The notes under the pieces were generated by a model that was not told the DNA's origin, ran no database searches, and worked only from the letters and a program-made list of their open reading frames with translations. From positions 124,001 to 188,000 of the forward strand of contig WYBC01000041.1 in assembly GCA_011526085.1 (NCBI GenBank): a stretch of DNA of 64,000 nucleotides, in the 5' to 3' direction. This document shows, in pieces, positions 3,924 through 64,000 of the stretch. This stretch comes from Lysobacter sp. (GTDB lineage Bacteria; Pseudomonadota; Gammaproteobacteria; Xanthomonadales; Xanthomonadaceae). Positions within the stretch are counted from its first letter, which is position 1. The number at the start of each line of letters is the position of its first letter. Both the position numbers and the translations under genes were made by a program.

Positions 3924-5141
3924 TTATGCGACCGAACCGGCCGCGTGTCCCGAAGCCCAGGCCCACTGGAAGTTGTAACCGCCGAGCCAACCGGTGACGT
4001 CGACGACTTCGCCGATGAAGTACAGACCGGAGACGCGTTTCGACTGCATGGTCGACGAGGACAACTCGTCGGTGTCGACGCCGCCGAGGGTGACTTCGGC
4101 GGTGCGGTAGCCTTCGGTGCCGCTGGCGACCAGCGGAAAGCGCTGCAGCTGCGCGGCGATGGTGCGCAATTCGGGATCGTTGAACTGGCGCATCGGGCGA
4201 CTGGGAAACCACAGGTCGCACAGCCGCTCGGCGAAGCGCTTCGGAAACAGGTCGCCGAGCATGGTGCGCAGTTCCGCCGCCGGGCGACGCGCGCGCAACG
4301 CCTTCAGCTGTTCGAACGCATCGCCCTGCGGCAACAGGTCGAGATGCAGCGCATCGCCGACGTTCCAGTACGACGAGATCTGCAGGATCGCCGGACCGCT
4401 GACGCCGCGATGGGTGATCAGCATGGAATTGCTGAAACGGCGTCCGTTGCATTCCGCGGTGACCGGAAACGCGACGCCGCTGAGATCGGCCAGCCGTTCC
4501 TGGTGTTTGCCGGTCAGGGTCAACGGCACCAGGCCGGCGCGGGTCGGCAGAACGGCGTGGCCGAAGCTGCGCGCGAGTTCGTAGCCGAAGCCGGTGGCGC
4601 CCATGCTCGGAATCGACAGCCCGCCGGTGGCCACCACCAGCGACGCCGCCTGCAGCGTGCCCTGCGTGGTGCGCACGCGGAAGCCCTCGTCGATCTTCTC
4701 CACGGCCTCGACGCTGCACCCGGTGTCGATGCGCACGCCGGCGTCGGCGCATTCGTCGAGCAGCATCTTCACGATCAACTTCGACGAGTCGTCGCAGAAC
4801 AGCTGGCCGAGTTCCTTTTCGTGATACGCGATGCCGTGGCGCTCGACCAGATCGATGAAGTGCTGCGGGGTGAACCGCGCCAGCGCCGATTTGCAGAAAT
4901 GCGGGTTGCGCGAAATGAAATTGGCGGCGGTGGTACCGGTGTTGGTGAAATTGCAGCGACCGCCGCCGGACATCAGGATCTTCTTGCCGCAGCGGTTGGC
5001 GTGCTCGATCACGCGCACGCGGCGTCCGCGCAGACCCGCGACCCGGGCGCACATCAGGCCCGCGGCGCCGCCGCCGATGACGACGACATCGACCCGGGTA
5101 TCGGTGCGGGCATCCGTCGATGGGGATTGCGCGGGAGGCAT
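3924..5141 (-). CDS. HI0933/BaiN-family NAD(P)/FAD-dependent oxidoreductase
   Basis: A flavoprotein of the HI0933 family, about 405 residues from the ATG at 5141, the usual length. The Rossmann FAD motif VVVIGGGAAGLM is at residues 19-30, followed by the family signature GKKILMSGGGRCNFTN and a C-terminal FAD motif near GLYFIGEVVDVTGWLGGYNFQWA. An earlier in-frame start would add about 70 low-complexity residues before the FAD motif and reach into the start of the divergent neighbour, so the shorter form is preferred. The physiological substrate of most family members is unknown; the name BaiN refers to a bile-acid enzyme and should not be read as function here. It is divergent from the next FAD protein, 100 bp away. 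Confidence 0.88.
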   Translation of the reverse strand: MPPAQSPSTDARTDTRVDVVVIGGGAAGLMCARVAGLRGRRVRVIEHANRCGKKILMSGGGRCNFTNTGTTAANFISRNPHFCKSALARFTPQHFIDLVERHGIAYHEKELGQLFCDDSSKLIVKMLLDECADAGVRIDTGCSVEAVEKIDEGFRVRTTQGTLQAASLVVATGGLSIPSMGATGFGYELARSFGHAVLPTRAGLVPLTLTGKHQERLADLSGVAFPVTAECNGRRFSNSMLITHRGVSGPAILQISSYWNVGDALHLDLLPQGDAFEQLKALRARRPAAELRTMLGDLFPKRFAERLCDLWFPSRPMRQFNDPELRTIAAQLQRFPLVASGTEGYRTAEVTLGGVDTDELSSSTMQSKRVSGLYFIGEVVDVTGWLGGYNFQWAWASGHAAGSVA

Positions 5142-5241
5142 GGGGCTCGGGCGGGTGGCGGCCGGCCATTGTAGGCGGCGCCGCTTGCGCCCGCCCGCGA
5201 CCTCGCCGAGCATGTGCGGTCTTCCCGATCCGAGCCCGCGG

Positions 5242-6846
5242 ATGCTGCGCCTGACCGAACTGAAACTGCCGCTGGACCACCCCGAGGCCGATCTGCCGAA
5301 GGCGATCGCGCAGCGGCTGGGGGTGGATGCGGACGACATCGCCGGGTTCACGGTGCACAAGCGCAGTTACGACGCGCGCAAACGCGGCGTCATCACCCTG
5401 ATCTATACGGTCGACGTCGCCCTGCGCGACGCGGCCGAGCCGGCGGTCATGGCCCGCGCCATCGCCCATGTCGCGCCCAGCCCGGACATGCGCTACCGCT
5501 TCGTCGCCCGGGCGCCGGCCACGCTGTCGTCGCGCCCGGTGGTGATCGGTTTCGGCCCCTGCGGGCTGTTCGCCGCCCTGATCCTGGCGCAGATGGGCTT
5601 CCGCCCGATCGTGCTGGAACGCGGCAGGGCGGTGCGCGAGCGCACCCGCGACACCTGGGGCCTGTGGCGCGGCAGCGTGCTGGATCCGGAATCGAACGTG
5701 CAGTTCGGCGAAGGCGGCGCCGGCACCTTCTCCGACGGCAAGCTGTGGAGCCAGATCAAGGATCCGCTGCACTACGGCCGCAAGGTGCTGGAGGAATTCG
5801 TGCAGGCCGGCGCGCCGGAGGAAATCCTGTACGTCAGCAAGCCGCACATCGGCACCTTCCGCCTGGTGAGCATGATCGAGAAGATGCGCGGCACGATCGA
5901 GTCGCTGGGCGGCGAGATCCGCTTCGGCGCGCGGGTCGAAGACGTGCGCATCGTCGATGGCCGCCTGCGCGGGCTGGTGCTGGCCGATGGCGAGGAGCTG
6001 CCGTGCGAGCATGTCGTGCTCGCCATCGGCCACAGCGCCCGCGACACCTTCCGCATGCTGCACGCGCGCGGCGTGCACATCGAGGCCAAGCCCTTCTCGA
6101 TCGGTTTCCGCATCGAGCATCCGCAGTCGCTGATCGACCAGGCGCGCTTCGGCCCCTTCGCGGGCCATCCGCTGCTCGGCGCGGCGGACTACCGCCTCGT
6201 GCATCACGCCGGCAACGGCCGCGGCGTCTACAGTTTCTGCATGTGCCCCGGCGGCACGGTGGTCGCGGCGACCTCGGAACCGGGCCAGGTCGTCACCAAC
6301 GGCATGAGCCAGTATTCGCGCAACGAACGCAACGCCAATGCGGGTCTGGTGGTCGGCATCAGCCCGGCGGACTATCCGGGCGGGCCGCTGGCCGGGCTCG
6401 ATTTCCAGCGCGCGCTCGAACGCCATGCGTTCGAACTGGGCGGCGGCGACTACTGGGCACCGGGGCAACGGGTCGGCGATTTCCTGCGCGGCCGGCCGTC
6501 GAAGGATTTCGGCGAGGTATCACCATCGTACAAGCCCGGCGTGCGTCCCGGCGATCTGTCCACCGCCCTGCCCGACTACGCCATCGCCGCGATCCGCGAA
6601 GCGATTCCCGCGCTGGATCGCCAGCTGAAGGGCTTCGCGATGCACGACGCGGTGCTGACCGGCGTCGAGACGCGCACGTCCTCGCCGATCCGCATCACCC
6701 GCGGCGCCGATTACCAGAGCGTCAACACCCGCGGCCTGTATCCGGCCGGCGAAGGCGCGAGCTACGCGGGCGGCATCTATTCCGCGGCGATCGACGGCAT
6801 CGAAGTGGCGCAGGCGGTGGCGCTGGCGATGACCGGCAAGACCTGA
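5242..6846 (+). CDS. FAD-dependent dehydrogenase, COG2509-type
   Basis: A 534-residue flavoprotein. After an N-terminal domain of about 95 residues comes the FAD-binding motif VVIGFGPCGLFAAL, then QFGEGGAGTFSDGKL and, near the C-terminus, YPAGEGASYAGGI, which are hallmarks of the COG2509 group of uncharacterised FAD dehydrogenases. The ATG at 5242 begins MLRLTELKLPL, typical of the family; an ATG at 5212 is also in frame. It is transcribed divergently from the HI0933-type flavoprotein, with the two starts about 100 bp apart. The reaction is unknown. A palindromic repeat begins just after its stop codon and probably closes the transcript. Confidence 0.85.
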   Translation: MLRLTELKLPLDHPEADLPKAIAQRLGVDADDIAGFTVHKRSYDARKRGVITLIYTVDVALRDAAEPAVMARAIAHVAPSPDMRYRFVARAPATLSSRPVVIGFGPCGLFAALILAQMGFRPIVLERGRAVRERTRDTWGLWRGSVLDPESNVQFGEGGAGTFSDGKLWSQIKDPLHYGRKVLEEFVQAGAPEEILYVSKPHIGTFRLVSMIEKMRGTIESLGGEIRFGARVEDVRIVDGRLRGLVLADGEELPCEHVVLAIGHSARDTFRMLHARGVHIEAKPFSIGFRIEHPQSLIDQARFGPFAGHPLLGAADYRLVHHAGNGRGVYSFCMCPGGTVVAATSEPGQVVTNGMSQYSRNERNANAGLVVGISPADYPGGPLAGLDFQRALERHAFELGGGDYWAPGQRVGDFLRGRPSKDFGEVSPSYKPGVRPGDLSTALPDYAIAAIREAIPALDRQLKGFAMHDAVLTGVETRTSSPIRITRGADYQSVNTRGLYPAGEGASYAGGIYSAAIDGIEVAQAVALAMTGKT

Positions 6847-49738: not shown

Positions 49739-49936
49739 CTAGACACCTCTGAATGAAACGCGGAAAACACAATTTTTACACTCGACCAGAAACCCGCTGC
49801 CCCCGTCATGAAATTCAAACTCGCCACCGCACCACGGGCATTTCCTTTCCGTGTGGCCGGCGTCGGCGAAATCAGAAAATGCCTGCTCAGCGTGCAGAAC
49901 ATCCTCTTCAGTCGGATCCCTTTTTTCAATAGCCAT
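49739..49936 (-). CDS. Small zinc-ribbon protein, candidate immunity protein
   Basis: A 65-residue protein. The first 28 residues are charged and helical (RDPTEEDVLHAEQAFSDFAD); the rest is a zinc ribbon with CPWCGG and CKNC, four cysteines in two CxxC pairs. Its ATG lies inside the end of the giant RHS gene: the two overlap by 11 bases, so the small gene is translated with it. Position directly after the toxin-like C-terminus is what is expected of an immunity gene. Its DNA is richer in A+T than the RHS core. I know no family with proven immunity function that matches; a regulatory zinc protein is the alternative. Confidence 0.65.
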   Translation of the reverse strand: MAIEKRDPTEEDVLHAEQAFSDFADAGHTERKCPWCGGEFEFHDGGSGFLVECKNCVFRVSFRGV

Positions 49937-50355
49937 AGAGCATCTCGCGCATGAATTTATTCATCCGAATCGGCGCACCAGCCTCTCTGGCACGCATGAT
50001 TGCATCATTGAGAAGATCGATCCTCTCTGCAAGCGTAAGGCCTGGAGAATTTCTTGCGGCCCAATAGCTCGCCCTGAATTCGTCGTTCCAGGAGCCCGGC
50101 TTGACCGAGGTACCTCGATGAGCCCTGTGCCCAAGCTCATGCGCCAGGGTCGCACGACTGCTCATGCTGGACCTGGGGTGCGCAGCACCTTCGATCGGCA
50201 ATACATCGCCTCGAACTCTTATCACATCGATCTCATCCACATACGAAGTCTGCCGACCTTGATTGAATCTCAGTATTGCGGGATCGCCTCCAACCTCGAT
50301 GAACTCATCGTTCAACTGTCTGATCTGCACGTCGTTCAACACGAGATTGGCGGGA
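49926..50355 (-). other. C-terminal toxin-like domain with HExxH zinc-protease motif
   Basis: The last 142 residues of the RHS protein. The motif AHELGHRAHRG (HExxH encoded at 50127-50141) is typical of zincin metallopeptidases. It is followed by KPGSWNDEFRASYWAARN, whose Glu could be the third ligand, and ends FMREMLYGY. The domain is visibly lower in GC than the RHS core, as is common for exchangeable toxin tips. Confidence 0.65.
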
Positions 50356-53300
50356 CGCCGCAATCCCCCTGTCATTCGCCCGGGGCTGGAAAGACTCGCA
50401 GCATAGCTTGTACGGATCCGCGCGGTCAGCGATGCCAGCGCATCCGAGGCCCGGGAATATCCCCGCGATGCGACCTGCCCGACCCACATTGAGCCCGACC
50501 GCGCCGCCGCACCGACATCGTAGCGCAGGAGCGGCATCGCCTTGAGCCTTCCCAGCATGGCGGTGGATGTTCCGCCACTCATCGCCATGCTCGATGCCAC
50601 CACATATCCGTCCGCAAGCATTTCATCCCAGCGATGGGTTTCGTAGTACTGCGTGGCGGCTTGCCAGACGATTCCCGGATTGGACGCGACATGACGCACG
50701 CCTTCGCCGAGATCGCTGCGCACCTGTCCATCGAGCAACGAGAATGTACCCACGGCTCCCTGGATGAATGCCATGAAGCCTCTCGCGGGTGCGCGAACGA
50801 TGGCAGCCGTCACCGTGGTCCAGTCGCCGTCGCCCGCAACCGCCGCATCGTCGAGATTGTTGACGACCGAGTTCGACCATCCGGCCGCGGTCTCGTTCGC
50901 CCGCTGGCCCCAGCTCAGTTCGCGCGTCGCGGTGACTTCGACCGTATCGAGCACCGGGATGGTGTCGGGGTTGGCATAGGGCGAAAGATACAGCTCATTG
51001 GCACGGGCGATGTCGTAAATGGTTGCGTCGGGCGAAAGAATCGGCAGGTCCGCACCCGGGTTCTTGGAAAGCGCCCACAACGCGAAATCGACGGAATCGT
51101 GGAGCATGTCGGGGTTCATGGCCGCCGCGCCGACGGGGTCGTCGATCGCCTGTTGCATGGTCGCCCAGACATATCCCTTTCCACCGCCGGTCGACTTGGC
51201 ATCGCCGGGAGCACCTCTACGCCTTGCCATCTCGCGGCGCAGGTTTTCGTAGGTCGGCTCGATGCCGCGGTCCCGCAGATCACGGAGCAGATCCTGCGTG
51301 CTTTCCATGCCGGCGATGTTGGCTTCCGCTTCCGCATATCTCCGGTCGATCGCCCGCTCGCGGGTGCGATCCGCGCTGATCGCGTTCGCACGTCGCACGT
51401 AAGCGTTGGCCAGCGCATTGCCGAACGCATCCGCGAGGATGCCGCCGTAGTTGATGCGATCGTCGAAACCGAACGCCCTGCGCGTGTGCAGTCCAACCAC
51501 GCCACCCAGTGCCTGCCCCCCCATGTCGCGCAGGAACGCGCCGTATTCGCTGCTGCCCTGCGATGCATCCAGTCCGAGTTTGCCGCCGAGAACATTGCTG
51601 GCCGCCGCGGCCACCGCGGAAGCGGCGATGTTTCTCCAGCTGAAACTGGCTTCGGCCCCCACCAGTCTGCTGGTGGCATAACTGGTGGCCTGACTCGCGA
51701 TCGCCTGCGCGCCGGCCCGTGCCCAGGACACGTTCTGCAGGGTCGTCCCGAGCGTTCCCGCGCTCGCCAGCGCGCCGAAGCCTGCCGACACCCCTCCCGC
51801 CGCTCCGCTGACCAGGGCGCTGCGCCAGCTGAAACTGCCGATGCCGAGCGCACTGCCGACCGCCTGACTCGCGACACTGCCAACGAGCCCACCGACCGCA
51901 CCGCCCACTACCGCGGCAGCAACCCCGAAAGTGCCGGACAAGGCCGCTGCACCGGTCGCCAGCGTCGCGGCGAAACCACCTGCGGTGGCCGCTGCCGCCG
52001 TTGTCGCTGCCGCTGCCGTGGTGCCGGCACCGATCGTGGCCGTCGCGGTCGCAGAGGTCGCGGTGGCGGCACTGCCCATCGCCCCCGCCGCCGCCCCCGC
52101 CGTATACACCGTCACCACCACCGCGATCACGACGATCAGGATCGTCGCCAGCACGTTGCAGTTCTGCTTCGGCGGCGGGGTGATGAAGGGCAGCCCCGGC
52201 GTAGTCGAGCCGATGGCTTCGGCCGGGTTGTAGGGTTTGAAGGTGCCGGCGTCGTTGGCGTTGACGTTCACCTGCGGCGTGTTGAGCTGGGTGCCCGCGG
52301 TGAGCGGGGCATCCGGGTTCGACAGGCCGTTGGCGTCCGCCAGCACGTACCACAGGCTGCTGTTGCCGTAGACGCGCTGCGCGAGCGATTGCAGGGTCTC
52401 GCCCTGCAGCGCCACCGTGGTGCCGCCGCCCGCGGCGTAGTTGCCGCGACCGTTGAGGGTCTGGATCTGCGGCGTGTTGTAGACGTAGTGGTTGTTGCGG
52501 ATCTGGCCGCCTTCGCGCAGTTCGGCCTGCTGCTGGCCGGCGGCATGCACGAACTGGTAGTTGTCGCGGGCGCCGGTCGCATCCGGGGTCTGCGTGAACA
52601 CGTTGTTGTGGATGGTGCCTTCGCGGCGGGTCTGCACCCGGCCGTCGCCGCTGTAGCTGTAGGCGCGCACGCGGTCGTCGATCGCGGTCTGGTACTCGGT
52701 GTGTTCGACCTGTTTCGTCAGGCGACCGAAGGCATCGTAGGTCAGCGTGTTGGTGGTCGGCTTGTAGCTGGTATTGGTGCTGCTGCCCGCAACCGTCTTC
52801 TCCTGATACGTCCCCCAACCTTCGTAGGTACTGGTGAAGGTGTGCGTCGCCCACTGCATGCTGGGCGCCGAATAACGGTAAAGGCGTACACGCCCCAGTG
52901 CATCGTAGCCGCTGTTGCCGGCGGTATCGGAATACTCCAGCACGCTGTGCGCGGCCAACAGATTCTCATCGGTGCGTTCGGCATGTTCGTCGAAGGTGCC
53001 CGGCTCGCGCCACTGGATGCCTGCCAGTCCGCCTTCCCGTCGGCGCGTCACATGCACCGCGAGGCGACCGTCCTGGTCGTAATGGAAGATTTCGGCATCG
53101 GACAGCCAGCCCGCGACGCTCATCGGCGCGTGCAGCGGGTAGCCTTCGCCATCCAGCGGAGAAGCGACTTCGGTACCGTTCTGGTAGAAGCTGTAGGTCT
53201 TGTCCAGCTGGTTCAGCGCATCGTAGGTGTACAGCTTCGAGATGCCGCCGAACTCGAAATTCACCGGATCCAGGAACTCCGCATGGAACTCGTACTGCTT

Positions 53301-56300
53301 GCGACCGCGCAGGTCGTAGGTGGTGCGATACACGATGTCGTGCTGCGACGTCTTGAGCAACCGCCCGACCACCTGGCCCACGGCGTCGTACATCAAGCCG
53401 TAGGATTCGGCCGGATTGGTCCCCAGGCCGATGTAGGCGCCCGGCGTACCCGGATCGACGAGACGGCCGCCGACCAGCTTCAACCGGTTTTCGGCGTCGT
53501 AGAGGAACCATTCGTCCTTGATCTGGACCGGCACGCTGGTGGTCGCGGCCCCGATCGGCGGAACGGCGATTTCGCCACTGCTCCCGGCCTCACCGGCGCC
53601 ATCGCCGCCCTTGCCGTCGTCGGGGGCTTCCGCGGCCCCCATGTCGAAGCTGTAGGTACCGCCTTCGGATTCGTCGATCAACTGACCACCGCTGTCGCCG
53701 TACTTGGTCAGCGTGAACTCATCGTAGACGGACAGGCCCGCGGGATCCGTCGCGGTCACGCGAATCGTGAAGGTCTGGGTCGCGGCGCCCGTTGGCGTCC
53801 CGGAGAAGGTCCGGCTGGGGCCGTCGAACGTCAACCAGACAGGCATGACACCCGTGCCGCCGATGCGTGTCGCCGTATAGGTCAGCGGATTGTTGTCGGG
53901 ATCGCGGAACGCGTTGGCGAGGAACGTGTATTCGAAATAGAAACCGCTGTCCGCGATCTGGTCCTGCAGCGGGATCTGCAACTCTGGCGCAGAGTTGCCC
54001 GACGAGGTCCCGATGGTGAAGGCGAACGCGACGCTGGCCGCACCCCCGTTGCCGTCGCTGGCGCCGTAGACGACCGTCCACGTGCCCGTCGCCGTCGGCG
54101 TCCCGCTGATGACGCGCGTGGCGGGATCAAAGCCCAGTCCACCCGGCAATCCGCTGACGGAATAGGTCAAAGTGTCGCCCGGATCGGCGTCGGTGAACGC
54201 CGGAAGCGCCAGCGACAGCGGCGTATTCACCGTGCCCGACTGCGCAGCCACGGTCGGAGCCACCGGCACGTTGTTCGCCTGCACATCGAGATTGAATACG
54301 ACGGTCGTCACGCCGCCCTGGTTGTCGTTGGCGGTGTACTGCACGACCGCGTTGCCCGACGATGTCGGCGTGCCGCTGATCGTTCGCGTCGATGCGGTGA
54401 ACGTCAGCCCCGCCGGCAACCCGATGACGGTCAGCGTCAACGACTGCGCGTTGGCATCGACGAACGCCGGCAGCTGATGACTGAACGCGACGTTCTGCCG
54501 CGCGGTCAACGTGTTGACGACCGGTGCGGTCGGCGCGACGTTGGCGATGGTCTCGAAAACACCCTGGACGGCGAGCCCCGCCGGATCGCGCGCGGCGATG
54601 CGCAGGTTGTAGTTGTAGTAGTTCCGATGATTCTGCCGGAGCACGCCTTGCACGACAGTATCGTCCCCTCTCGCATACAACGCCTTGATCGTGCCGCTGA
54701 CGGTGCCGCTGGTGGCGATGGACAGGCCCACGTTGGATGCCGTCGCCGGCACCCAGACCGGATCGATCCAGCGCGATTCCCAGGCGTTGTCCTGTGGATT
54801 CCAATAGAGCTCCTGATACCCGGGCTGCTCGACTTCGAGCGTGTAGGTCAGCGGATCGCCGTTGGCATCGGTGATGGCGCCCGCCGGCAGCGGCCACGAC
54901 ACCGCGGTGTTCAGCGGCGCGATCCGCGTCGGCAGCGGGCCGTTGAGCACCGGCCCGACGTTCGCCGTCGAGATGTTGAAGGTGGCCGATGCAGACGATC
55001 CTCCGTCCGAGGCGGTGACGCGGATCGTCCAGGTCCCGGAGGATGTCGGCGTGCCGGTGAACGCACGGGTCAGCGGATCGAAACTCAACCAGGACGGCAG
55101 CGGGCCATTGTTCCAGCTCGCGCTGTAGGTCAGTGCATCGCCGTTGGGATCGGTGAAGGCGTTCGCGGGCACCGTGTAGTTGAACGGCTGCGACGGCTGC
55201 GCGACCTGGTTCGTCAAGGCGCCTGACGTGTAGGTCGGCGCGCCGTTGGCGATCGACAGTTGCAGGACGGTCGACGACGACAATCCGCTGGGGTCGGTCG
55301 CGGTGATCCGGATCGCATGCGTGGCGAGCGCGGGCCCGGTGCCGCTGAGCACGCCGGCCGTGGTGATCGTGAGCCACGCCGGCAGCGCCGCACCGCTGGT
55401 CAATTGGGCGGTGTAGGTCAGCGTGCCGCCCTCGGGGTCGCTGAAGCCGGGCACGGTGTAGCTGAAGAACTGATTGATCATCGCCTGGTGCGACAGCGAC
55501 ACCGGCGCGATCGGCTTGCGGCTCACGCTGAGCACGAAGGTGCCGCTGGCCATCGCCTGCTGCGGATCGCGCGCCTCGATGCGCACGGTGTAGCTGCCCT
55601 GGCCGAGATTCGTCGGCGTCCCGGTGATGCGTCCGGTCACCGCATCGATGGACAGGCCGATCGTGCCGATGCCGACCCAGTTCGACCCGATCTGCACCAG
55701 CGCGCTGTAGGACAGCGGATCGCCGTCGGGCTCGTGGAATGCATTGGCGGGCAGCGGGAAATCGAGCGGCTGGCCCTCGACGCCGTTGCGCGGCGGCAAC
55801 GACCCGGGCGTATACGACGGCTGGCCGTTGCTCCAGGGCTGGAACGTGATGCGGATGTCCCCGTCGGTGGACACGTTGACGGCACCCACGTGCTGCTGGT
55901 TCGCCGCGCTCTCCAGCATGCGGTCGTCCACGCCGGTGATGCGCAGGATGATCGGCGCCGTCTGATTCGCCGGCACGAGGCCGGTGAAGGTGCGCGTCGC
56001 CGCATCGAACGTCATCCAGGACGGCAATCCCATGGATTCGACGTGGTACGTTCCCGTCTCCGCGTCGTAACCCTGCTCGATCAGGCTCGCGTGCAGCGTG
56101 ACCGGGTCGCCGTCAGGATCCGAGAACAGGCCCGCCGGGAGGGTGTAACTGAAGCTGCGATTGATGGACAACGCATGGTCCGGCAACGGGACCGGCGTGC
56201 GTACGGGAGCGCGGTCGGCGCCAACGGTGAGGGAGAAGGTCTTCGTGCCGGCCAGACCGGCGAGATCGGTCGCGCGCACGCTGAAGGCGAACGTGCCGAC

Positions 56301-59300
56301 CGGCGGCGTCGTACCGCTGATCCTCGAGAAGGTGACGGTTCCCGCCGCGTGATTGACCGTCATCTTCAGCCAGCCCGGAAGCGGCGAGCCCGCCGGCGTC
56401 TGCAGCGTCAGGTCGAGGGCATCCTGCTCGGGGTCGTTGAAGAACGCGGTGATCGGGAAGGTCTGGCTGAAATTGTCGAATTGCCGCAGCGACAGCGGCT
56501 GCGTGCCGGCGGTCGCCGCGGGCGCGCGATTGGCGAATACCCGGATCGCGAGCGTGGTCGCGACGGCAGCGCCGTCCTCATCGGTGGCGGTCAGCCGGAC
56601 GTTGTAGACGCGACCGTCGATTTCGCTGGCCGGCACGTTGCCGTTGAACACGATCTGCGGCGTCGCCTGATCGTGGAGATGCTGGAACGACAGCCAGCCC
56701 GGCAGGGCGCTCCCGTCCACGAGTTCGGCAGCGACCTGCAGGCGATCGCCATCGAGATCGGCGAACACCTGCGGCAGATCGCGGGTCCACTGGAACTGGC
56801 GGCCGAGGATGGCGTCCACCGGCGCCGGCGTCGCCACGACGGTCGGCGCCGAATTCGGCGCATGCGTGATGTTGAACTGCTGGACCGCGGTTGCACCCGA
56901 CTGGTCGGTCGCGCGCAGGCGCAGGACGAACGTGGCCGTGCCCTGCGGCGTGCCGCCGAGGCGGATCACGCCCGGCGTGCCCGTGTCGACGCTCACCCAG
57001 CCCGGGAGTCCGTTCTCGATGAGAAGGCCGAGCACGTCGCCCACGTCGGCATCGCGGAAATGGTCGCTGGCGACGAGATCCATGGCCCACGGTTGCCCGC
57101 TCTTCACCCGCACCGCGATGTCGCCCGATGCGATCGCGACCGGCGCGGTATTGGTGCGCACCCGCACCGTGAAGGTCGTGCTCACGGCGTTGCCGGGATT
57201 GCCGATCTCGGCCGCGGTCAGGCGCACCACGATGTCCTGATCGGCGAGGTTCGCCGGCGGATTGGCGATGAACACGATTTCGCCGGTCACCGGGTCGGGC
57301 GCGGCCTGCAGCCAGCCCGGCAAGCTACTGCCGTCGCCGCGGGCGATGCCGAGATTCAGCGCGTTCTGCTCGGCATCGCGGAAGATGTCGCTGAACAACA
57401 GGCGGAATTCGGATGTCCTGCCCTTGCGGACGGTGCGGTCGTCGACCGGACGGGCCACCACCGGTGCGCTGTTGACGACCGGAATGCCGTCGACGTTCGG
57501 CCCGAAACCGGAGGCCGCGCGCACGTGGCGGCGATTGCCGTTGGCGTCGTATTCGGTGACCAGGTCGAAGATGCGCTTGTTGGCGGACAGATCGTCCTGG
57601 ACGACGCGTTCGACCCGGTTGTGGCTGTCGTAGGTCGTGCGCGTGCGGGTGCGGACCTGCAGCCCGTAGGCGTCGGTGGTGGTCACCTCTTCCACGGTCT
57701 TGTTGCCGGCCGCATCGTATTCGTAGCGGTAGATCGTCGCGCCTTCGACGATTTCGCGGATGCGACCGTTGGCGAAGTAGCTGACCTTGCGATCGGCCGC
57801 GGGCGCGACGATGGATTGTCCACCCGCACCGGTCTCGCGGCGCAACTGGCCGGACTCGCCGTTGTACTCGTAGTCGCTGTCGCGGCCGCTGAGGTTGTTG
57901 TGATCGATCAGGCGACCGAACACATCGTAGTTCCAGCTCGACTCGTCGAGGCGGACGGTTTCGCTCTCGCGATCGAGATACGTCGGCGCATTGGCAGCCA
58001 GCGACAGCGCATTGCGCTCCAGCACTTTCCGCGCGGCGGCGTCGTAGGCGTATTCCATCACCACGCCCATCTGGGTCTCGCTGCGGATCAGCTGGCTGCG
58101 GCTGTCGTAATCGTACTTCGATCCCCAATCGTAGGGATTGAGGACGACGATGCGATCGCCGTTTTCGTTGAGGGTATAGCGCTGCATCGACCACTTGCCG
58201 CGGGTGGTGCCGTCGGCGTTCGGCATGTAGTCGCCGATGGCGACGACTCTCCCCACCTGGTCGTATTCCTTGAAGCTGAGATAGCCCAGCGCGTTCTGGG
58301 TCGCGCGCTGGTTGCCGAGGGCATCGTAGGCGAACCGGGTCGCGTTGCCGTACGCGTCCTTCGACGCCACCATGCGTCCGGTGGCGTCGTATTCGGTGGT
58401 GCGCAGATTGCCGTTGGCGTCGCGGGTCGCGACCAGACGGCCCAGCGCGTCGTAATAGCGCTGGTTCTCTGGACGTCGCCATTCGCTGCCGCCGTTCTCC
58501 CCCACCACCTTCACCAGCGGGCGGATTTCGCGCACCAGCTGATCGAGGCTGTTGTATTCGTAATCGGTCTGGTAACCGCGGGTATCGACGATACGCAGCA
58601 CGTTGCCCCAGCGATCAACGGTCTGAGTCAGGGTGCTGGTGGTCGTGGCCTCGGCGGTGTGCGACGGCAGGATCACCTGCAGCGTGCGGCCGAGCTTGTC
58701 GACCCGGGTGCGCGTGATCGCATCCACCACCATGTCCATGCCGCCCGTGGTCGACAGATAGGCGCGCTGCTTCGCGTAGACCTGGTGCCCGGCGAGGTTG
58801 TAGCCGAACTCGCGCATGGCGCCGCTCTCGTTCGAGCCGGTCATGCGTCCCGCGGCATCGTAGGTGTAGACCAGCGTGCCGGAGAGGCCGTGCAGGGTCT
58901 TGGTGACGATCTCGCCGAAGGCGTTGTAGCTCACGGTCTCGCCGGTATCGACGACGCTGCCCTGCGGATTGCCGTTGAGCAGGAGATCGCGGGTCGTGAG
59001 CGTGGTCTCCTGGCGTCCGGTCTTGTCGTAGGTGTTGACGATCCGCACGAGCGCGCTGCGCCCGCCGTTGCCGGTCAGGGTGTAGCGCACGCCGGTGACG
59101 TTGTCGGCTTCGTCGAAGCTGCGGGTGACCACCGCGCCCTCGCCGTCGCGCATCCACACCGCGCGTCCCTGGCGGTCGTAGCGCATCCGCTGGATCTGGT
59201 CGCGGTCGTCGTCGGCGATCGCGGTCTGTCCATCGGGCTTGCCGTTGGCGAAACGCCGCACTTCGACCGCATTGCCGAAGGCGTCGTACGCCATCGTCGT

Positions 59301-62300
59301 GTAGGGAGAGCGCTGTTCGTACAACAGCGTCGAGGTCAGATCGTGGGTGGTGCTGCTGCCCAGCACCGTATCCATGCCCTGCCCGACGACGTCGCGCAGC
59401 GGCTCCTGCACCGACTTCACGCGACCCAGCGCATCGTAGGCGGTGAGGGTGGTGCCGGTCTCGTCGACGAGCGAGGTCACGCGGCCTTCGCCGTCGTAGC
59501 CGAAGGTCGAGGTCACGTCGCGGCTGCCGGTGCTGCCGTCGGGACGGCGGTACTGGCGGACCGAGGTCTCGGTCTCCTTGCGCCCGACCGCATCGTAGGT
59601 CCAGCGGGTGATGCGGTCGGCGCCGATGGTGGTGTCGCCGGGCGCAGGCACGCCGGGACGCACGGCGACATCCGGCGTCTGGGTCAGCGCACGCGCGTAC
59701 TCGACGGTCTTCGTCGCTTCGCCGGTCGCGTTGTACTCGGTTTCGGTGACGTAACCCAGCGGGTCCACGGTCAGCGTGTTGCGGCCGAGCGCGTCGTAAT
59801 AGCGATACGCCGTCGCCCATTGCTCGCTGCCGCTGCCGGGCACGCCTTCGAGCAGCACCGAAGTCGTCACCTGGTCGCCGTAGGCGTTGTAGGCGTAGGT
59901 GGTGGTCGGCGTGCCGGTGGCGCTCGCGCCGTTGCCGGTGCGATACGCGACCGTGGACAGTTCGACCTTCGTCTTCAGTCCGCGCGGATCGTACTGGGTC
60001 GCGATGCTGCGATCGTCGACGCTCGCGGCCGGTTGCCCGCCCGCCTGCATCTGCGCGAGCGAGATCGCCTGCGGTTCACTCCAGCCGGCGATGTTGCCCA
60101 GCGCGTTGGCGTGACGGCGGACGAGGGTCTGTTCGCCGTAGGTGTTGTAGGCGTACGTGGTGACCTGGCGCTCCTGGTCGATCTCGTGGACCACCCGGCC
60201 CAGCGCGTCGTAGACCCGGTGGCTGTAATGGCCGCGCGCGTCCTTCTGCACCACCGCCTGGCCGAGCGCGTCGTAAACGATCTCGATCGTGGGGCGGCTG
60301 CCGGTGAGCACGATCGCCCCCGTGGACGGGTCGACCGCGCCGGGATCGGCGAACACGATGCGGATCTGGTGGCCGCGGCTGTCGTATTCGTAGTCGGTGG
60401 TGCGCCGGTCGTCCACGATCGGCGCATTGGCGTCTTCGGTTTTCGACAGCAGATTGCCGATGCCGTCGTACGCGTAGAGCGTGGCGATCGAACGGGTTTC
60501 GGTCGAGAGGCTGCCGTCGGCGGCGACCCGCGCGATCTGGACCGGCGGGCTGAATTCGCCGGTGCGGTTGCCGGCGGCGTCGTATGCGTAGGCCCAGATC
60601 CTGTTGTTGCGGTCGGTGCGGCTGGTCATCCGGCCGGCACCGTCGTATCCGTACGATTCGGTCTTGTTGGCCGCATCGATGGACTGGAACAGGCGACCGG
60701 CGGCATCGTGGACGGATTGCGTACGGCGAATGTCGCCCACGGGCTGCGTGCCCGCCCATGCGACGAGACCGGAGAAGGACGTGGTGCCCGCCGAAGGACG
60801 CTGTTCGTAGGCGATGGTGTCCGTGACCCGGCCGGCGCCGTCGTAGCGGGTTTCCGTCAACACACCGGTGGCGTCGAGCACGAAGCGCTGGCGGCCCGCG
60901 CTGTCGTGGACGAAACGCGTGGTGCGCGATTCCACCGAGGACAGCGCTGCGCTCAATTCGCTGTCGGTATCGGTCGGATCGAAGACGACCATGGCCCCGT
61001 ACTGCAGGGTCGAAGTCACGCGACCGGCCGCGTCGTAGCGCATTTCGGCGACCACGCCCGCGCCGGTGGCGGCACGGGTCACGGTGAAGCGCACGCGGCC
61101 GGCCGCATCGTGCACGCGATATTCGCTGCGTGCGGTGCCGCCGTTTGCGGCGACGAAGGTCGAGAAATCCGACTCCAGGGCGGTGCCCGCGAGCAGTTTC
61201 GCGCGCAGCGCGGCGTTCACGCTCATCGTGACCGCGAACGCGCGCGACAGCGACACCCGGCCCGCCGCATCGTAGGTGGTCTGGGCCACCGTACCGGCAC
61301 CGGTGAGCGTGTAGCGCAGACGGCCGGCGGCATCGTGGACGAAGTATTCGATCTGATCGGCGGCGCTGTCGACGAGCAGGGACGCGAGCTGGGTCGTGCT
61401 CGTGGCATCGCCGACCAGGGCCGGGTTCACCGTGGTCGCATGACGGACGCGGGCGACCATGCGCCCGGCCCCGTCGTAATGCATGCGCACGACCGCACCG
61501 ATCCCATCGACGGTGAACACCGCCTGCCCTGCCGCGTCGTACACCTGGCGGACCCGCATGTCCTTCGCGTCCGCCGTCACGGCGACATCGGCCACGGTCG
61601 CCGTGCCCGCACGCAGGCTGTTGCGCAGCGCGGTCGTGAGCGTCGCCTTCAGCGCATGGCGGCGTTCGAGAACCGCGCGGCCCGCACTGTCGTAGGCGTA
61701 CGCGATCACGCCGCCCATGCCGTCGACCGTCATCGCGACGCGCCCGTCGCCGTCGTGGACGGTGTAGACGGTCTCGTCCACCGCATCGTTGCGCAGCGAC
61801 TGCGCGACGATCAGGGCCGAGATGTCCGACTCGGTCGGCGTCGCCGGCAATCCGGCGATGTTCGCCTGTGCGCCGTAGGTGCGCGTCATCGTGGTCCGGC
61901 CGGCGGCATCGTAGGCGAGTTCGGTGATGCCGCCCGCGCCATCGACGCTGAAGCGCAGGCGATTCGCGGCATCGTAGCTGTAGCGGGTGACGCGGCCGCT
62001 GGCGTCGGTCCTGCGCGTGACGTTGTCGTTCGCGTCGTAGGCGTAGGTGGTGACGAGATTCAGCGTATCGGGATCGACCGTTTCGGTGGTGCGCCGGCCC
62101 AGCGCGTCGTAACCGTAGCGCACGGTCCGCGCGGCGGCGGTGCCGGCGCCTTCGGTCATCGTCAGCTGGCGAGCGTCGCGATCCCAGGTCCAGGTGGTGC
62201 GCAGCGCGAGGCCATTCGGATCGACGATCGTCTCGGTCAGGTTGCCCTTGCGGTCGTAGAGCATGCCGGTCGTGCGCCCGCTCGCATCGACAACTTCGGT

Positions 62301-64000
62301 GACGCGACCCTGACCGTCGTAGGTCGTGGTCGTGGTCAGCGCCAGACCGGCCGGATCCTCGATCCGGCGGAGCATGCGGCCCGCGGCATCGTAGCGATAC
62401 TCGACCCGGCGCTGCGAACCGTCGACCGTGGCGACGAGCAGCCCGCGCGCATCGTAGTCGTGATGGTCGATGCGTCCCAGCGGATCGATCACATCGACGA
62501 CCTGACCGTCCTTGTCGTAGGTCGTGGTCGTGGTGGCGGTGCTGCCGTCCGGCAGCGTCTGCGAGACCGTGAAGATCTGACCGAAACGGTTGTGCTTGGT
62601 GGTCACGCGCACATTCTCGGGCGTGATCGTGAGCACGCTGCGCGCGTTGTCGCTGTATTCGTAGCGGGTGGTCCGACCGGTCGCGTCGGTCAGCTCGATC
62701 GTCCGGCCGAAGGCGTCGTAAGCCATCAGAACGGTTTCGTTGCGACCGCTGACGTTGTTCGCGGTCTGCGACACCAGCCGCCCAAGCCGGTCGTAGCCCA
62801 GCGTGACCGTGTTGCCGCGCGCATCGGTTCGGGTCGTGACCCGACCGAAGGCATCGTGGATCGCGCCGATGCTGCGGCTGAGCGCGTTGCCGGACTCGTT
62901 CTGGCCGGTCAGCAGCCCGCGCGTATCGTAGGTATTGGTGACGGTGCGACGGACGCTGCCGTTCGCTTCGAGATCCTGCTGCGTCCACAGCTCACCGAAT
63001 GCGGTGTAGGCGTAGAGCGTGCGGTAGCCCTCGGCATCGGTCCGCTCGCTCAACAGGCCGCGGGTGTCGTAGCGGAACTGCGCGCGGCTGTCGGCGGCGC
63101 CGATCGCCAGCGCCGAGATCGCCGACTGCGCGCTGGCCCGACTGCCGGGAATCGCGAGGGTGATCTTGCCGGTGTAGGCGATGCTGTCGACGACCTCGCC
63201 GAAGACGCTGTAGCGGGTCTCGACGACTTCGCCCCGCGCGTTCTGGAGGTTGTTGGCGTCGTGCATGCCGCGGACCACGAAGGTTTCGCGGCCGGCAGCA
63301 TCGTGGAAATACCAGGTCTTGTTGCCCGCGGCATCGATGCTTTCGATGCGGCGACCGACGAGGTCGTAGCTGTGGCGCACGCCATGCTGCGCGTAGATCG
63401 CATCGATCTCCGCCTCGGTCATGCCCGGTAGCAGATGGGTGGAGCCCTGCCCCGAAAGTTCGCCGATCAGATTGCCGAACACGTCGTAGCGGAGATTCCC
63501 TTCGCGGATCTCGCTGGTGGCGTGCGCCGCCTGCGTCTTCACCAGGCGGCCGGCATCGTCGTAGAAATAACGCGTGGCGGTGCCTTCGTGGTTCAGCTCG
63601 ACCGTCAACTGACCCAAGGCGTTGTAGCTGCGACGGGTGGTGCGATAGGCCTCCGGCGGCGGCTGATCCAGCGCGGCATCGTGCAGGGTCGTCAGGCTTT
63701 CCTCGCCGTTGAGACCGGTGAGCCGCTTGGCGTAGTTCTTCACTTCGCGCAGGTTGTTCGCCTCGTCGTAGGCGAACTCGGTGAGATGGCCTTCCGCGTC
63801 GAGCAGGCCGATCTGCTGGTTGCGCCCGTTGTAGAACAGGCGCGTGACCTGATCCGCCGTCGGGGACGAACCGGGACGCAGATCGTCGAGCGCTCCATTG
63901 GCCCAATACGCCGAAGGCGAGACAGTGGCGTAGCGGATGGTTTCCGCCACGCGCCCGGCGGCATCGTAGACGGTCTCGACCAGATAGCCCGCCGCATCGA
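49926..64000 (-). CDS. Giant RHS/YD-repeat protein with Ig array, LysM and HELGH C-terminal domain (5' end beyond window)
   Basis: The frame is open from the right edge to the stop at 49926, at least 4690 residues; the N-terminus is outside. In order: YD repeats (YDAAGRV and variants) to about 57500, including a ~70-residue super-repeat; about twelve Ig/cadherin-like domains (57490-53700); YD repeats again (53650-52600); a LysM domain (52430-52260); a hydrophobic segment (TILIVVIAVVVTVYTAG) and Gly/Ala-rich stretches with GSFSWRSALVSGAAGG; a spacer with WGQRANETAAGWSNSV; and a C-terminal domain with AHELGHRAHRG. RHS proteins encapsulate and deliver variable toxins. The canonical RYYDP...DPxG end of the RHS shell is not seen. 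A small gene overlaps its stop. Delivery route is unknown; no secretion genes are in the window. Confidence 0.9.
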   Translation of the reverse strand, partial: DAAGYLVETVYDAAGRVAETIRYATVSPSAYWANGALDDLRPGSSPTADQVTRLFYNGRNQQIGLLDAEGHLTEFAYDEANNLREVKNYAKRLTGLNGEESLTTLHDAALDQPPPEAYRTTRRSYNALGQLTVELNHEGTATRYFYDDAGRLVKTQAAHATSEIREGNLRYDVFGNLIGELSGQGSTHLLPGMTEAEIDAIYAQHGVRHSYDLVGRRIESIDAAGNKTWYFHDAAGRETFVVRGMHDANNLQNARGEVVETRYSVFGEVVDSIAYTGKITLAIPGSRASAQSAISALAIGAADSRAQFRYDTRGLLSERTDAEGYRTLYAYTAFGELWTQQDLEANGSVRRTVTNTYDTRGLLTGQNESGNALSRSIGAIHDAFGRVTTRTDARGNTVTLGYDRLGRLVSQTANNVSGRNETVLMAYDAFGRTIELTDATGRTTRYEYSDNARSVLTITPENVRVTTKHNRFGQIFTVSQTLPDGSTATTTTTYDKDGQVVDVIDPLGRIDHHDYDARGLLVATVDGSQRRVEYRYDAAGRMLRRIEDPAGLALTTTTTYDGQGRVTEVVDASGRTTGMLYDRKGNLTETIVDPNGLALRTTWTWDRDARQLTMTEGAGTAAARTVRYGYDALGRRTTETVDPDTLNLVTTYAYDANDNVTRRTDASGRVTRYSYDAANRLRFSVDGAGGITELAYDAAGRTTMTRTYGAQANIAGLPATPTESDISALIVAQSLRNDAVDETVYTVHDGDGRVAMTVDGMGGVIAYAYDSAGRAVLERRHALKATLTTALRNSLRAGTATVADVAVTADAKDMRVRQVYDAAGQAVFTVDGIGAVVRMHYDGAGRMVARVRHATTVNPALVGDATSTTQLASLLVDSAADQIEYFVHDAAGRLRYTLTGAGTVAQTTYDAAGRVSLSRAFAVTMSVNAALRAKLLAGTALESDFSTFVAANGGTARSEYRVHDAAGRVRFTVTRAATGAGVVAEMRYDAAGRVTSTLQYGAMVVFDPTDTDSELSAALSSVESRTTRFVHDSAGRQRFVLDATGVLTETRYDGAGRVTDTIAYEQRPSAGTTSFSGLVAWAGTQPVGDIRRTQSVHDAAGRLFQSIDAANKTESYGYDGAGRMTSRTDRNNRIWAYAYDAAGNRTGEFSPPVQIARVAADGSLSTETRSIATLYAYDGIGNLLSKTEDANAPIVDDRRTTDYEYDSRGHQIRIVFADPGAVDPSTGAIVLTGSRPTIEIVYDALGQAVVQKDARGHYSHRVYDALGRVVHEIDQERQVTTYAYNTYGEQTLVRRHANALGNIAGWSEPQAISLAQMQAGGQPAASVDDRSIATQYDPRGLKTKVELSTVAYRTGNGASATGTPTTTYAYNAYGDQVTTSVLLEGVPGSGSEQWATAYRYYDALGRNTLTVDPLGYVTETEYNATGEATKTVEYARALTQTPDVAVRPGVPAPGDTTIGADRITRWTYDAVGRKETETSVRQYRRPDGSTGSRDVTSTFGYDGEGRVTSLVDETGTTLTAYDALGRVKSVQEPLRDVVGQGMDTVLGSSTTHDLTSTLLYEQRSPYTTMAYDAFGNAVEVRRFANGKPDGQTAIADDDRDQIQRMRYDRQGRAVWMRDGEGAVVTRSFDEADNVTGVRYTLTGNGGRSALVRIVNTYDKTGRQETTLTTRDLLLNGNPQGSVVDTGETVSYNAFGEIVTKTLHGLSGTLVYTYDAAGRMTGSNESGAMREFGYNLAGHQVYAKQRAYLSTTGGMDMVVDAITRTRVDKLGRTLQVILPSHTAEATTTSTLTQTVDRWGNVLRIVDTRGYQTDYEYNSLDQLVREIRPLVKVVGENGGSEWRRPENQRYYDALGRLVATRDANGNLRTTEYDATGRMVASKDAYGNATRFAYDALGNQRATQNALGYLSFKEYDQVGRVVAIGDYMPNADGTTRGKWSMQRYTLNENGDRIVVLNPYDWGSKYDYDSRSQLIRSETQMGVVMEYAYDAAARKVLERNALSLAANAPTYLDRESETVRLDESSWNYDVFGRLIDHNNLSGRDSDYEYNGESGQLRRETGAGGQSIVAPAADRKVSYFANGRIREIVEGATIYRYEYDAAGNKTVEEVTTTDAYGLQVRTRTRTTYDSHNRVERVVQDDLSANKRIFDLVTEYDANGNRRHVRAASGFGPNVDGIPVVNSAPVVARPVDDRTVRKGRTSEFRLLFSDIFRDAEQNALNLGIARGDGSSLPGWLQAAPDPVTGEIVFIANPPANLADQDIVVRLTAAEIGNPGNAVSTTFTVRVRTNTAPVAIASGDIAVRVKSGQPWAMDLVASDHFRDADVGDVLGLLIENGLPGWVSVDTGTPGVIRLGGTPQGTATFVLRLRATDQSGATAVQQFNITHAPNSAPTVVATPAPVDAILGRQFQWTRDLPQVFADLDGDRLQVAAELVDGSALPGWLSFQHLHDQATPQIVFNGNVPASEIDGRVYNVRLTATDEDGAAVATTLAIRVFANRAPAATAGTQPLSLRQFDNFSQTFPITAFFNDPEQDALDLTLQTPAGSPLPGWLKMTVNHAAGTVTFSRISGTTPPVGTFAFSVRATDLAGLAGTKTFSLTVGADRAPVRTPVPLPDHALSINRSFSYTLPAGLFSDPDGDPVTLHASLIEQGYDAETGTYHVESMGLPSWMTFDAATRTFTGLVPANQTAPIILRITGVDDRMLESAANQQHVGAVNVSTDGDIRITFQPWSNGQPSYTPGSLPPRNGVEGQPLDFPLPANAFHEPDGDPLSYSALVQIGSNWVGIGTIGLSIDAVTGRITGTPTNLGQGSYTVRIEARDPQQAMASGTFVLSVSRKPIAPVSLSHQAMINQFFSYTVPGFSDPEGGTLTYTAQLTSGAALPAWLTITTAGVLSGTGPALATHAIRITATDPSGLSSSTVLQLSIANGAPTYTSGALTNQVAQPSQPFNYTVPANAFTDPNGDALTYSASWNNGPLPSWLSFDPLTRAFTGTPTSSGTWTIRVTASDGGSSASATFNISTANVGPVLNGPLPTRIAPLNTAVSWPLPAGAITDANGDPLTYTLEVEQPGYQELYWNPQDNAWESRWIDPVWVPATASNVGLSIATSGTVSGTIKALYARGDDTVVQGVLRQNHRNYYNYNLRIAARDPAGLAVQGVFETIANVAPTAPVVNTLTARQNVAFSHQLPAFVDANAQSLTLTVIGLPAGLTFTASTRTISGTPTSSGNAVVQYTANDNQGGVTTVVFNLDVQANNVPVAPTVAAQSGTVNTPLSLALPAFTDADPGDTLTYSVSGLPGGLGFDPATRVISGTPTATGTWTVVYGASDGNGGAASVAFAFTIGTSSGNSAPELQIPLQDQIADSGFYFEYTFLANAFRDPDNNPLTYTATRIGGTGVMPVWLTFDGPSRTFSGTPTGAATQTFTIRVTATDPAGLSVYDEFTLTKYGDSGGQLIDESEGGTYSFDMGAAEAPDDGKGGDGAGEAGSSGEIAVPPIGAATTSVPVQIKDEWFLYDAENRLKLVGGRLVDPGTPGAYIGLGTNPAESYGLMYDAVGQVVGRLLKTSQHDIVYRTTYDLRGRKQYEFHAEFLDPVNFEFGGISKLYTYDALNQLDKTYSFYQNGTEVASPLDGEGYPLHAPMSVAGWLSDAEIFHYDQDGRLAVHVTRRREGGLAGIQWREPGTFDEHAERTDENLLAAHSVLEYSDTAGNSGYDALGRVRLYRYSAPSMQWATHTFTSTYEGWGTYQEKTVAGSSTNTSYKPTTNTLTYDAFGRLTKQVEHTEYQTAIDDRVRAYSYSGDGRVQTRREGTIHNNVFTQTPDATGARDNYQFVHAAGQQQAELREGGQIRNNHYVYNTPQIQTLNGRGNYAAGGGTTVALQGETLQSLAQRVYGNSSLWYVLADANGLSNPDAPLTAGTQLNTPQVNVNANDAGTFKPYNPAEAIGSTTPGLPFITPPPKQNCNVLATILIVVIAVVVTVYTAGAAAGAMGSAATATSATATATIGAGTTAAAATTAAAATAGGFAATLATGAAALSGTFGVAAAVVGGAVGGLVGSVASQAVGSALGIGSFSWRSALVSGAAGGVSAGFGALASAGTLGTTLQNVSWARAGAQAIASQATSYATSRLVGAEASFSWRNIAASAVAAAASNVLGGKLGLDASQGSSEYGAFLRDMGGQALGGVVGLHTRRAFGFDDRINYGGILADAFGNALANAYVRRANAISADRTRERAIDRRYAEAEANIAGMESTQDLLRDLRDRGIEPTYENLRREMARRRGAPGDAKSTGGGKGYVWATMQQAIDDPVGAAAMNPDMLHDSVDFALWALSKNPGADLPILSPDATIYDIARANELYLSPYANPDTIPVLDTVEVTATRELSWGQRANETAAGWSNSVVNNLDDAAVAGDGDWTTVTAAIVRAPARGFMAFIQGAVGTFSLLDGQVRSDLGEGVRHVASNPGIVWQAATQYYETHRWDEMLADGYVVASSMAMSGGTSTAMLGRLKAMPLLRYDVGAAARSGSMWVGQVASRGYSRASDALASLTARIRTSYAASLSSPGRMTGGLRRPANLVLNDVQIRQLNDEFIEVGGDPAILRFNQGRQTSYVDEIDVIRVRGDVLPIEGAAHPRSSMSSRATLAHELGHRAHRGTSVKPGSWNDEFRASYWAARNSPGLTLAERIDLLNDAIMRAREAGAPIRMNKFMREMLYGY
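52260..52430 (-). other. LysM domain within the RHS protein
   Basis: The encoded stretch GGTTVALQGETLQSLAQRVYG...LWYVLADANGL...LTAGTQLNTP fits a single LysM module, which binds peptidoglycan or other N-acetylglucosamine polymers. It lies between the last YD repeats and the hydrophobic region. Confidence 0.85.
53700..57490 (-). repeat. Array of about twelve Ig/cadherin-like domains inside the RHS core
   Basis: Each unit of roughly 85-125 residues starts with N-x-A-P or a variant and contains D-P/A-D/E-x-D-x-L...LPxWL...GTP. This is the putative Ig (He_PIG) and cadherin-like pattern. YD repeats occur on both sides, so the array interrupts the RHS shell. Confidence 0.8.
60690..61770 (-). repeat. 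About 70-residue super-repeat in the RHS core
   Basis: Six related units begin with a Y/F-x-VHDAAGR motif, then FTVDG-like and YDAAGRV motifs and an Ala/Leu-rich spacer. Spacings counted by hand are about 72, 67, 75 and 68 residues. The units alternate HDAAGR and YDAAGR, unlike simple YD repeats elsewhere in the gene. Confidence 0.75.

Follow-up and report, generated by a model that had tools for sequence, protein, structure and literature searches.

At the end of an RHS gene in the window (the whole stretch of 64,000 nucleotides analysed here), the C-terminal tip of the encoded protein and the small gene overlapping its stop codon very probably form a polymorphic toxin-immunity cassette, in which a cytoplasmic zinc protease would be blocked by a cytosolic zinc-ribbon protein. 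The tip and the small gene together are apparently an undescribed toxin-antidote family common to phages and bacteria. We found the small gene to be specific to this tip family and to lie downstream of it; immunity is its presumed function. The features are as follows.

49926..64000, continuing past the window edge, minus strand: RHS carrier gene with RHS repeats, He_PIG Ig-like repeats, a tail-X/LysM-like stretch, and DUF6531 near the N-terminus
49929..50375, minus strand: mobile toxin tip, a predicted zincin peptidase of about 149 residues, from MTGGLR to YGY
50127..50141, minus strand: HELGH at residues 74-78 of the tip, with the putative catalytic Glu and two of the predicted zinc ligands
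50079..50081, minus strand: Glu94 of the tip, in WNDEFRAS, invariant, predicted third zinc ligand
49926..49936, minus strand: overlap of toxin stop and antidote start, 11 bases (ATGGCTATTGA)
49739..49936, minus strand: small gene of 65 codons with ATG start, predicted cytosolic immunity protein with N-terminal helix and zinc ribbon
49769..49840, minus strand: CPWC...CKNC zinc-ribbon knuckles (C33, C36, C53, C56), coordinates counted from the ORF start

The RHS carrier gene

The RHS gene occupies the right end of the window, with its stop codon at 49926-49928 on the minus strand. Its open frame runs for 5594 residues from stop to stop and extends beyond the window, and the listed ORF (49926-63950) is only part of the gene; the start is likely near contig position C38:190626, at the first plausible Met past the upstream stop. 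Pfam matches are to RHS_repeat (2.5e-104), He_PIG (1.1e-97) and DUF6531 (2.9e-7), with a further match to Phage_tail_X (2.8e-4) below that model's cut-off; the N-terminal part of the protein combines DUF6531 with RHS repeats. A preliminary description of this DNA had remarked that the tip is lower in GC than the RHS core, which measurement bears out: GC is 54.9% in the tip and 51.5% in the small gene but 67.1% in the remaining RHS ORF within the window (50361-63950), and no other of the 284 sliding 432-base windows taken on this ORF is as low as the tip. A single copy each of the tip and of the small gene was found in the window's genome, where the T6SS sheath gene VipB (PF05943) was not found; nor were repeats found flanking the module. 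A second, incomplete RHS-like ORF (C38:193879-195725) lies outside the window at the contig end, and the 134-residue stop-to-stop lipoprotein-like ORF after it could be its partner.

The toxin tip

The RHS C-terminus had been described as carrying an HELGH zinc-protease motif with acidic residues downstream. The motif (50127-50141) stands firm: its H, E, G and H are invariant in all 19 aligned tips, and the pattern HE(x1-2)GH followed by a Glu is kept in all 23 distinct tips compared, the 19 phage members among them having it as HExxxH. The plural of the acidic residues does not stand, as the claim narrows to one invariant Glu (E94), found 15 residues past HELGH in the window tip. This spacing, HE(x1-2)GH-x15-E, recurs in 22 of the 23 tips, the exception (L050) having a loop longer by 14 residues. 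Of 21 tips compared, 18 open with a GLR motif.

An AlphaFold2 model of the tip (50360-49929; 15 homologous sequences) reached a pLDDT of 94.2 and a pTM of 0.89. It has a helix at 10-22, strands at 30-32, 39-41 and 46-49, helices at 68-80 and 91-104, and two further helices; HELGH lies inside helix 68-80 and Glu94 inside helix 91-104. The zincin core has been outlined as a helix, three strands, the HExxH helix and a Glu helix (Iyer and colleagues, PMC5512222), and the order of elements in the model agrees with it, giving a minimal zincin topology. The preliminary description had named a fold lacking a zincin active site as a finding that would speak against it; structure prediction returns the zincin order with high confidence. 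The motif, this order and the confidence of the model together predict a zincin fold for the tip, with a putative zinc site.

No family model claims the tip: among 19 tips scanned, the best weak matches were 0.0037 in Pfam, 0.0096 in NCBIfam and 0.0021 in PADLOC. Pfam holds models for the Tox-MPTase1-5 and PVC-metallopeptidase toxins, and these were matched neither by the 19 tips to E 0.1 nor by the window tip to E 10. The window tip had no convincing match in PHROGs, and sequence searches of the PDB brought up no convincing relative.

The small gene

As first described, the 65-codon gene (49739-49936) and the end of the RHS gene share 11 bases (49926-49936). These bases, ATGGCTATTGA, encode both the GY-stop of the tip and the MAI of the putative antidote, and the identical overlap occurs in 17 of 25 intact pairs by hand count. 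The four-cysteine zinc ribbon originally proposed is likewise upheld, by C33, C36, C53 and C56 and by a model with a helix at 10-26 followed by three strands (pLDDT 84.1, pTM 0.65); two cysteine pairs on a three-stranded sheet make a predicted zinc ribbon. The Pfam zinc-ribbon matches of the protein all fall below cut-offs, a weak match to Lar (0.0014) being among the Pfam matches under cut-off. All four cysteines are present in 22 of 23 small proteins compared. The Dormibacteraeota protein (L013 1520-1714) retains two of the four, so that the antidote may be able to work without zinc; this two-cysteine homologue is a natural test of the antidote's zinc requirement.

Inspection of the 23 small proteins by eye showed no signal peptide, and for this reason we take the antidote to be probably cytosolic and the toxin target likewise. 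A reducing cytoplasm is favourable to cysteine zinc ribbons, which also speaks against the pair working in the same manner but in the periplasm, as VgrG2b and PA0261 do. That variant, which we regard as very unlikely, has a precedent in the C-terminal metallopeptidase of VgrG2b, toxic in the E. coli periplasm and harmless in the cytoplasm (PMC6899460); however, antidotes of the PA0261 type have signal peptides, lipoboxes or membrane helices, and inspection by eye brought up none of these in the small proteins compared.

Relatives and carriers

Bacterial genome contigs were searched in one scan with the window tip as the only query, and IMG/VR in two scans, yielding 22 distinct contigs with the tip. 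Bacterial tips came from Arenimonas sp. at 88% identity, from Roseateles caseinilyticus at 74% and from a Dormibacteraeota MAG at 58%, and in all three records the small gene follows the tip. The phage tips on the 22 IMG/VR contigs have 37-54% identity. The majority of tip copies found are on phage contigs, a proportion to be read with the single scan and single query of the bacterial collection in mind. The tip is rare in sampled genomes: matches at E 0.01 were found in 7 of 198 genomes of the family (2 convincing, the window's genome included), 1 of 369 of the class, 4 of 398 of the order (two of them distant) and 1 of 398 of the phylum, these samples overlapping and each counting the window's own genome. 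Five weak tip matches in the family (L003-L007, E 0.002-0.005) and a weak antidote match (L010) were dropped, as family profiles did not recover them (best 0.34). Tip searches of the phage and plasmid collections gave nothing significant besides two Stanieria plasmids (one further match had E 0.9), and antidote searches of the same collections gave nothing significant (best 0.3).

The viral tip forms the end of ORFs that measure 169 to 841 residues between stops; a contig end cuts three of these frames, and one is broken. Three phage carriers were scanned with Pfam/NCBIfam; two matched minor capsid protein 2 (4.1e-93 and 7.5e-36) and the third an SPP1 gp7 domain (1.8e-10). When the 22 viral carriers were grouped by sequence, ten fell with the two minor capsid carriers, five joined the SPP1 gp7-like carrier loosely (link at 17 bits) and six were left without assignment, with L023 too short. 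A reading of head proteins on all 22 contigs was rejected as too wide, ten being the number that group with minor capsid carriers. The MuF or minor-capsid N-terminus present in the three scanned phage relatives is absent from the window carrier, an RHS protein. The Dormibacteraeota carrier has a WXG100-like N-terminus (WXG100_2, 3.3e-9), and the 455-residue Roseateles carrier has an N-terminal segment in common with the window RHS (46% over 177 positions, E 1.3e-33). In Arenimonas there is an in-frame stop about 14 residues before the tip, the contig ends there, and no carrier was seen.

The RHS segment just before the tip recurs, as a 38- to 66-residue match, with three other tails (L052-L054) in genomes G180 and G065, as is commonly seen where tips are exchanged. 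Since the carriers are unrelated and the tip starts at its GLR motif, the tip of about 150 residues appears as a module joining unrelated proteins. The exchangeable RHS tip of the preliminary description is well matched by this spread over RHS, WXG100, minor capsid and SPP1 gp7-like carriers, and by the other tails on the segment before it.

Linkage of tip and partner

Tip and partner profiles were run over the collected loci, giving 29 distinct tip loci. A same-strand partner stands at the tip end in 27 of them, namely the window, L002, L011, L012, L013 and all 22 viral contigs; the last include copies or near-copies (L028/L029, L045/L046 and L020/L048, with both frames broken in L048). Nine viral partners outside the training set of the partner profile match it at 4e-7 to 5e-20. 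The two exceptions are divergent standalone Stanieria plasmid proteins of 169 residues, each followed by a different gene of 96 residues. A later scan across the order (398 genomes) added distant internal copies of the tip without partner (L109 and L110). Related genes with the same tip and no small gene had been named as a finding that would speak against the pairing; among close relatives none was found, the small gene being there in 27 of the 29 loci.

As a specificity control, the N-terminal parts of two phage carriers were used as queries and gave 52 carrier loci. The two query loci have tip and partner, and the remaining 50 are without the tip. Seven of the 50 were dropped (five open at a contig end, two with too little downstream). 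The partner profile had no same-strand match among these 50 sister carriers with other or no tips, 43 of them readable downstream; at L083 it matched on the opposite strand. A looser four-Cys pattern was met by a small ORF in 3 of the 43 readable controls (L066, identical in sequence to L074, and L105) and in none of six sister carriers with other HExxH tips. The contrast of 27/29 with 0/43 indicates that the partner goes with the tip, and not with the carrier or with metallopeptidase tips generally. The small gene is very likely the antidote of the tip, judging from these comparisons, and the toxin-plus-immunity-gene reading first given to this locus gains support from both the exchange of carriers and the 27/29 linkage.

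The six sister phage head proteins with other HExxH tips (L076-L079, L085 and L090; HELFH, HEHGH or HELGH) fall outside the family profile, have no four-Cys small ORF and represent further metallopeptidase tips. At L105 a phage head-protein tail is followed by a Cys-rich ORF of 84 residues (CPVC...CTVC), whose product is a candidate for another kind of zinc-binding antidote.

Many zinc ribbons bind nucleic acids, and weak similarity links the small protein to Lar, as given above, and to other zinc ribbons. It might then have a function of its own, for instance in DNA or RNA binding or in Lar-like anti-restriction, and merely hitch-hike beside the tip. We consider this most improbable, as the small gene follows the tip on RHS, WXG100 and phage carriers alike and is missing, by same-strand profile, from all of the readable sister carriers.

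Distances among tips and among partners rise together (Mantel r 0.72 over 23 pairs, a value reached in 0 of 5000 permutations), a correlation that shows co-inheritance only and does not separate it from co-evolution. Rows left out of this comparison were L029 and L046 (pairs the same as L028 and L045), L048 (frames broken), L002 (remnant) and Stanieria (no partner).

In genome G138 (L002) the toxin is a truncated remnant that matches only from just before HELGH and has an internal stop. The small gene there survives as an intact ORF of 65 codons, 60% identical to that of the window. A broken toxin beside an intact small gene is the pattern expected of an antidote still worth keeping, in this one case. 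It bears also on the suggestion that the tip serves as a peptidase for trimming its carrier protein, kept inactive by the small protein, as regulator or chaperone, until export or packaging. Zincins of polyvalent proteins, HExxxH ones included, have indeed been proposed for processing (PMC5512222), and distant relatives of the tip are standalone proteins or internal domains. We nevertheless find such a role unlikely: the tip is the very end of the protein, where no sequence follows that a cut could free, it occurs on unrelated carriers, and a dedicated chaperone would not be expected to stay intact beside a broken toxin, though G138 is a single case. An antidote remains the preferred reading of the small gene.

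A motif of two lengths

The motif is HELGH or HEVGH in the window, Arenimonas, Roseateles and Dormibacteraeota tips and in the G138 remnant, and HEYYGH, one residue longer, in 22 of 22 phage tips. The longer form is found in outliers also, as HELVGH in Stanieria and as HEAIGH and HEVIGH in L109 and L110, which suggests that the HELGH of the window is the shortened form; it was probably derived from the longer one. A single change of motif length was recovered in 20% of 200 bootstrap trees, so that the tree does not establish a single origin. The partner's second cysteine pair reads CxxC, in place of CxxxxC, in the window, L011 and L012. A shortened motif and a shortened cysteine pair in one lineage may be a coincidence or a matched change. 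For the HExxxH zincins of polyvalent proteins a helix bend has been proposed to accommodate the extra residue (PMC5512222), and in dipeptidyl peptidase III a shortened HEXXH form, a natural variation, keeps the zinc site (PMC5805324).

The Stanieria relative with HELVGH (4947-5453 in both L014 and L015) is a standalone protein encoded between a relaxase gene and a conserved gene of 96 residues, on plasmids typed as conjugative; the 96-residue protein might be its own partner. In L109 and L110 (match at 1501 onwards) a distant HExxGH zincin domain lies mid-frame in open frames of 1452 and 1742 residues; beyond it each frame has a stretch rich in Pro and Ala and then a C-terminal region that is similar in the two. 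The examined parts of these two frames had no Pfam family match, and they are possibly another delivery or conflict system. As the distant relatives are standalone or internal, all without the small gene, the fold by itself does not imply a toxin.

Proposed mechanism

We infer protease activity and toxicity of the tip, a cytoplasmic target, binding by the partner, and delivery, and would put these together as follows. The two His of HELGH and Glu94 would hold zinc, and Glu75 would activate water. The RHS shell would bring the tip into a competing cell, where the tip would cut an essential cytoplasmic protein. In the producer cell the 65-residue helix-plus-zinc-ribbon protein would bind and block the tip, so that producer and kin would survive. 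The cassette travels as a unit among carriers: in phages it sits at the end of proteins, many of them head proteins that would enter the host with the DNA, and the phage-borne antidote would protect lysogens; in bacteria it rides on RHS and WXG100 carriers.

A further proposal, conceivable though doubtful, is that the antidote mimics the substrate. The tip would then attack a conserved cytoplasmic zinc-ribbon protein, such as one of the transcription, translation or topoisomerase machinery, and an uncleavable ribbon would protect phages and bacteria alike. If this were so, the changes from HEYYGH to HELGH and from CxxxxC to CxxC would be matched lock-and-key changes in the same bacterial lineage.

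Whatever the substrate, the cassette provides a testable pair whose toxin has no convincing Pfam, NCBIfam or PADLOC match, and it connects toxins of phage head proteins with RHS and WXG100 proteins of bacteria. The partner would be a small, naturally occurring inhibitor of a zinc protease. HExxxH and HExxH forms within one family are a natural pair that lets the role of the extra residue be asked, a question already put for dipeptidyl peptidase III (PMC5805324). Finding the substrate could expose a weak point in the cytoplasm that is common to very different bacteria.

Comparison with known systems

We found no description of the tip with its zinc-ribbon partner in the literature searched, mainly the main texts of openly available papers. 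In the portions consulted of papers that name immunity proteins, zinc ribbons and toxins together, the ribbons are not antidotes.

Dipeptidyl peptidase III (M49) resembles the tip in that HEXXGH is shortened to HEXXH in natural members, and its EECKA/EECRA-type Glu motif resembles the DEFRA of the tip; it differs as a large two-domain exopeptidase (PMC5805324). Kinship was set aside and the likeness taken as convergence, as 19 tips had no M49 match in Pfam or NCBIfam to E 0.1. The HEXXXH zincins of polyvalent proteins (Iyer et al., 2017; PMC5512222) have the same longer motif and occur in phages and on conjugative elements, a setting echoed by the Stanieria plasmid relatives beside their relaxase gene. 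They differ in being one domain among several, proposed for processing, and are likened to the tip by description only; the account given of them there describes no dedicated zinc-ribbon partner.

The Tox-MPTase1-5 and PVC-metallopeptidase toxins (Zhang et al., 2012; PMC3482391) are, like the tip, small zincins, many of them with RHS repeats. The conserved residues of Tox-MPTase1-5 differ from those of the tip, and the family table lists no immunity partner for them, unlike the tip here; the sole ribbon mention found in that paper concerns another domain. MuF toxins of temperate phages (Jamet et al., 2017; PMC5576092) resemble our phage copies in having tips on head proteins together with small ORFs, and differ from the window copy, which is on an RHS and not a head protein. 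That study reported 191 putative MuF toxins, 20% of them with metallopeptidase domains, and small ORFs following 89.4%, and the word zinc is absent from the main text; the tip family may be present, unnamed, among the MuF metallopeptidases of the supplementary tables of that study.

The closest experimentally tested case that we encountered is the C-terminal domain of VgrG2b with PA0261 (Tpe-Tpi, PMC6899460), a zinc metallopeptidase effector followed by a small cognate antidote that binds it, as is predicted for the present pair. It differs in its VgrG carrier, T6SS delivery, periplasmic action and an antidote in the cell envelope, and PA0261 is not described there as a zinc ribbon, the fold predicted for the small protein here. 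Set beside these systems, and with strong comparative support, the tip and its partner are apparently an undescribed family within a known kind, that of polymorphic toxins and their immunity proteins.
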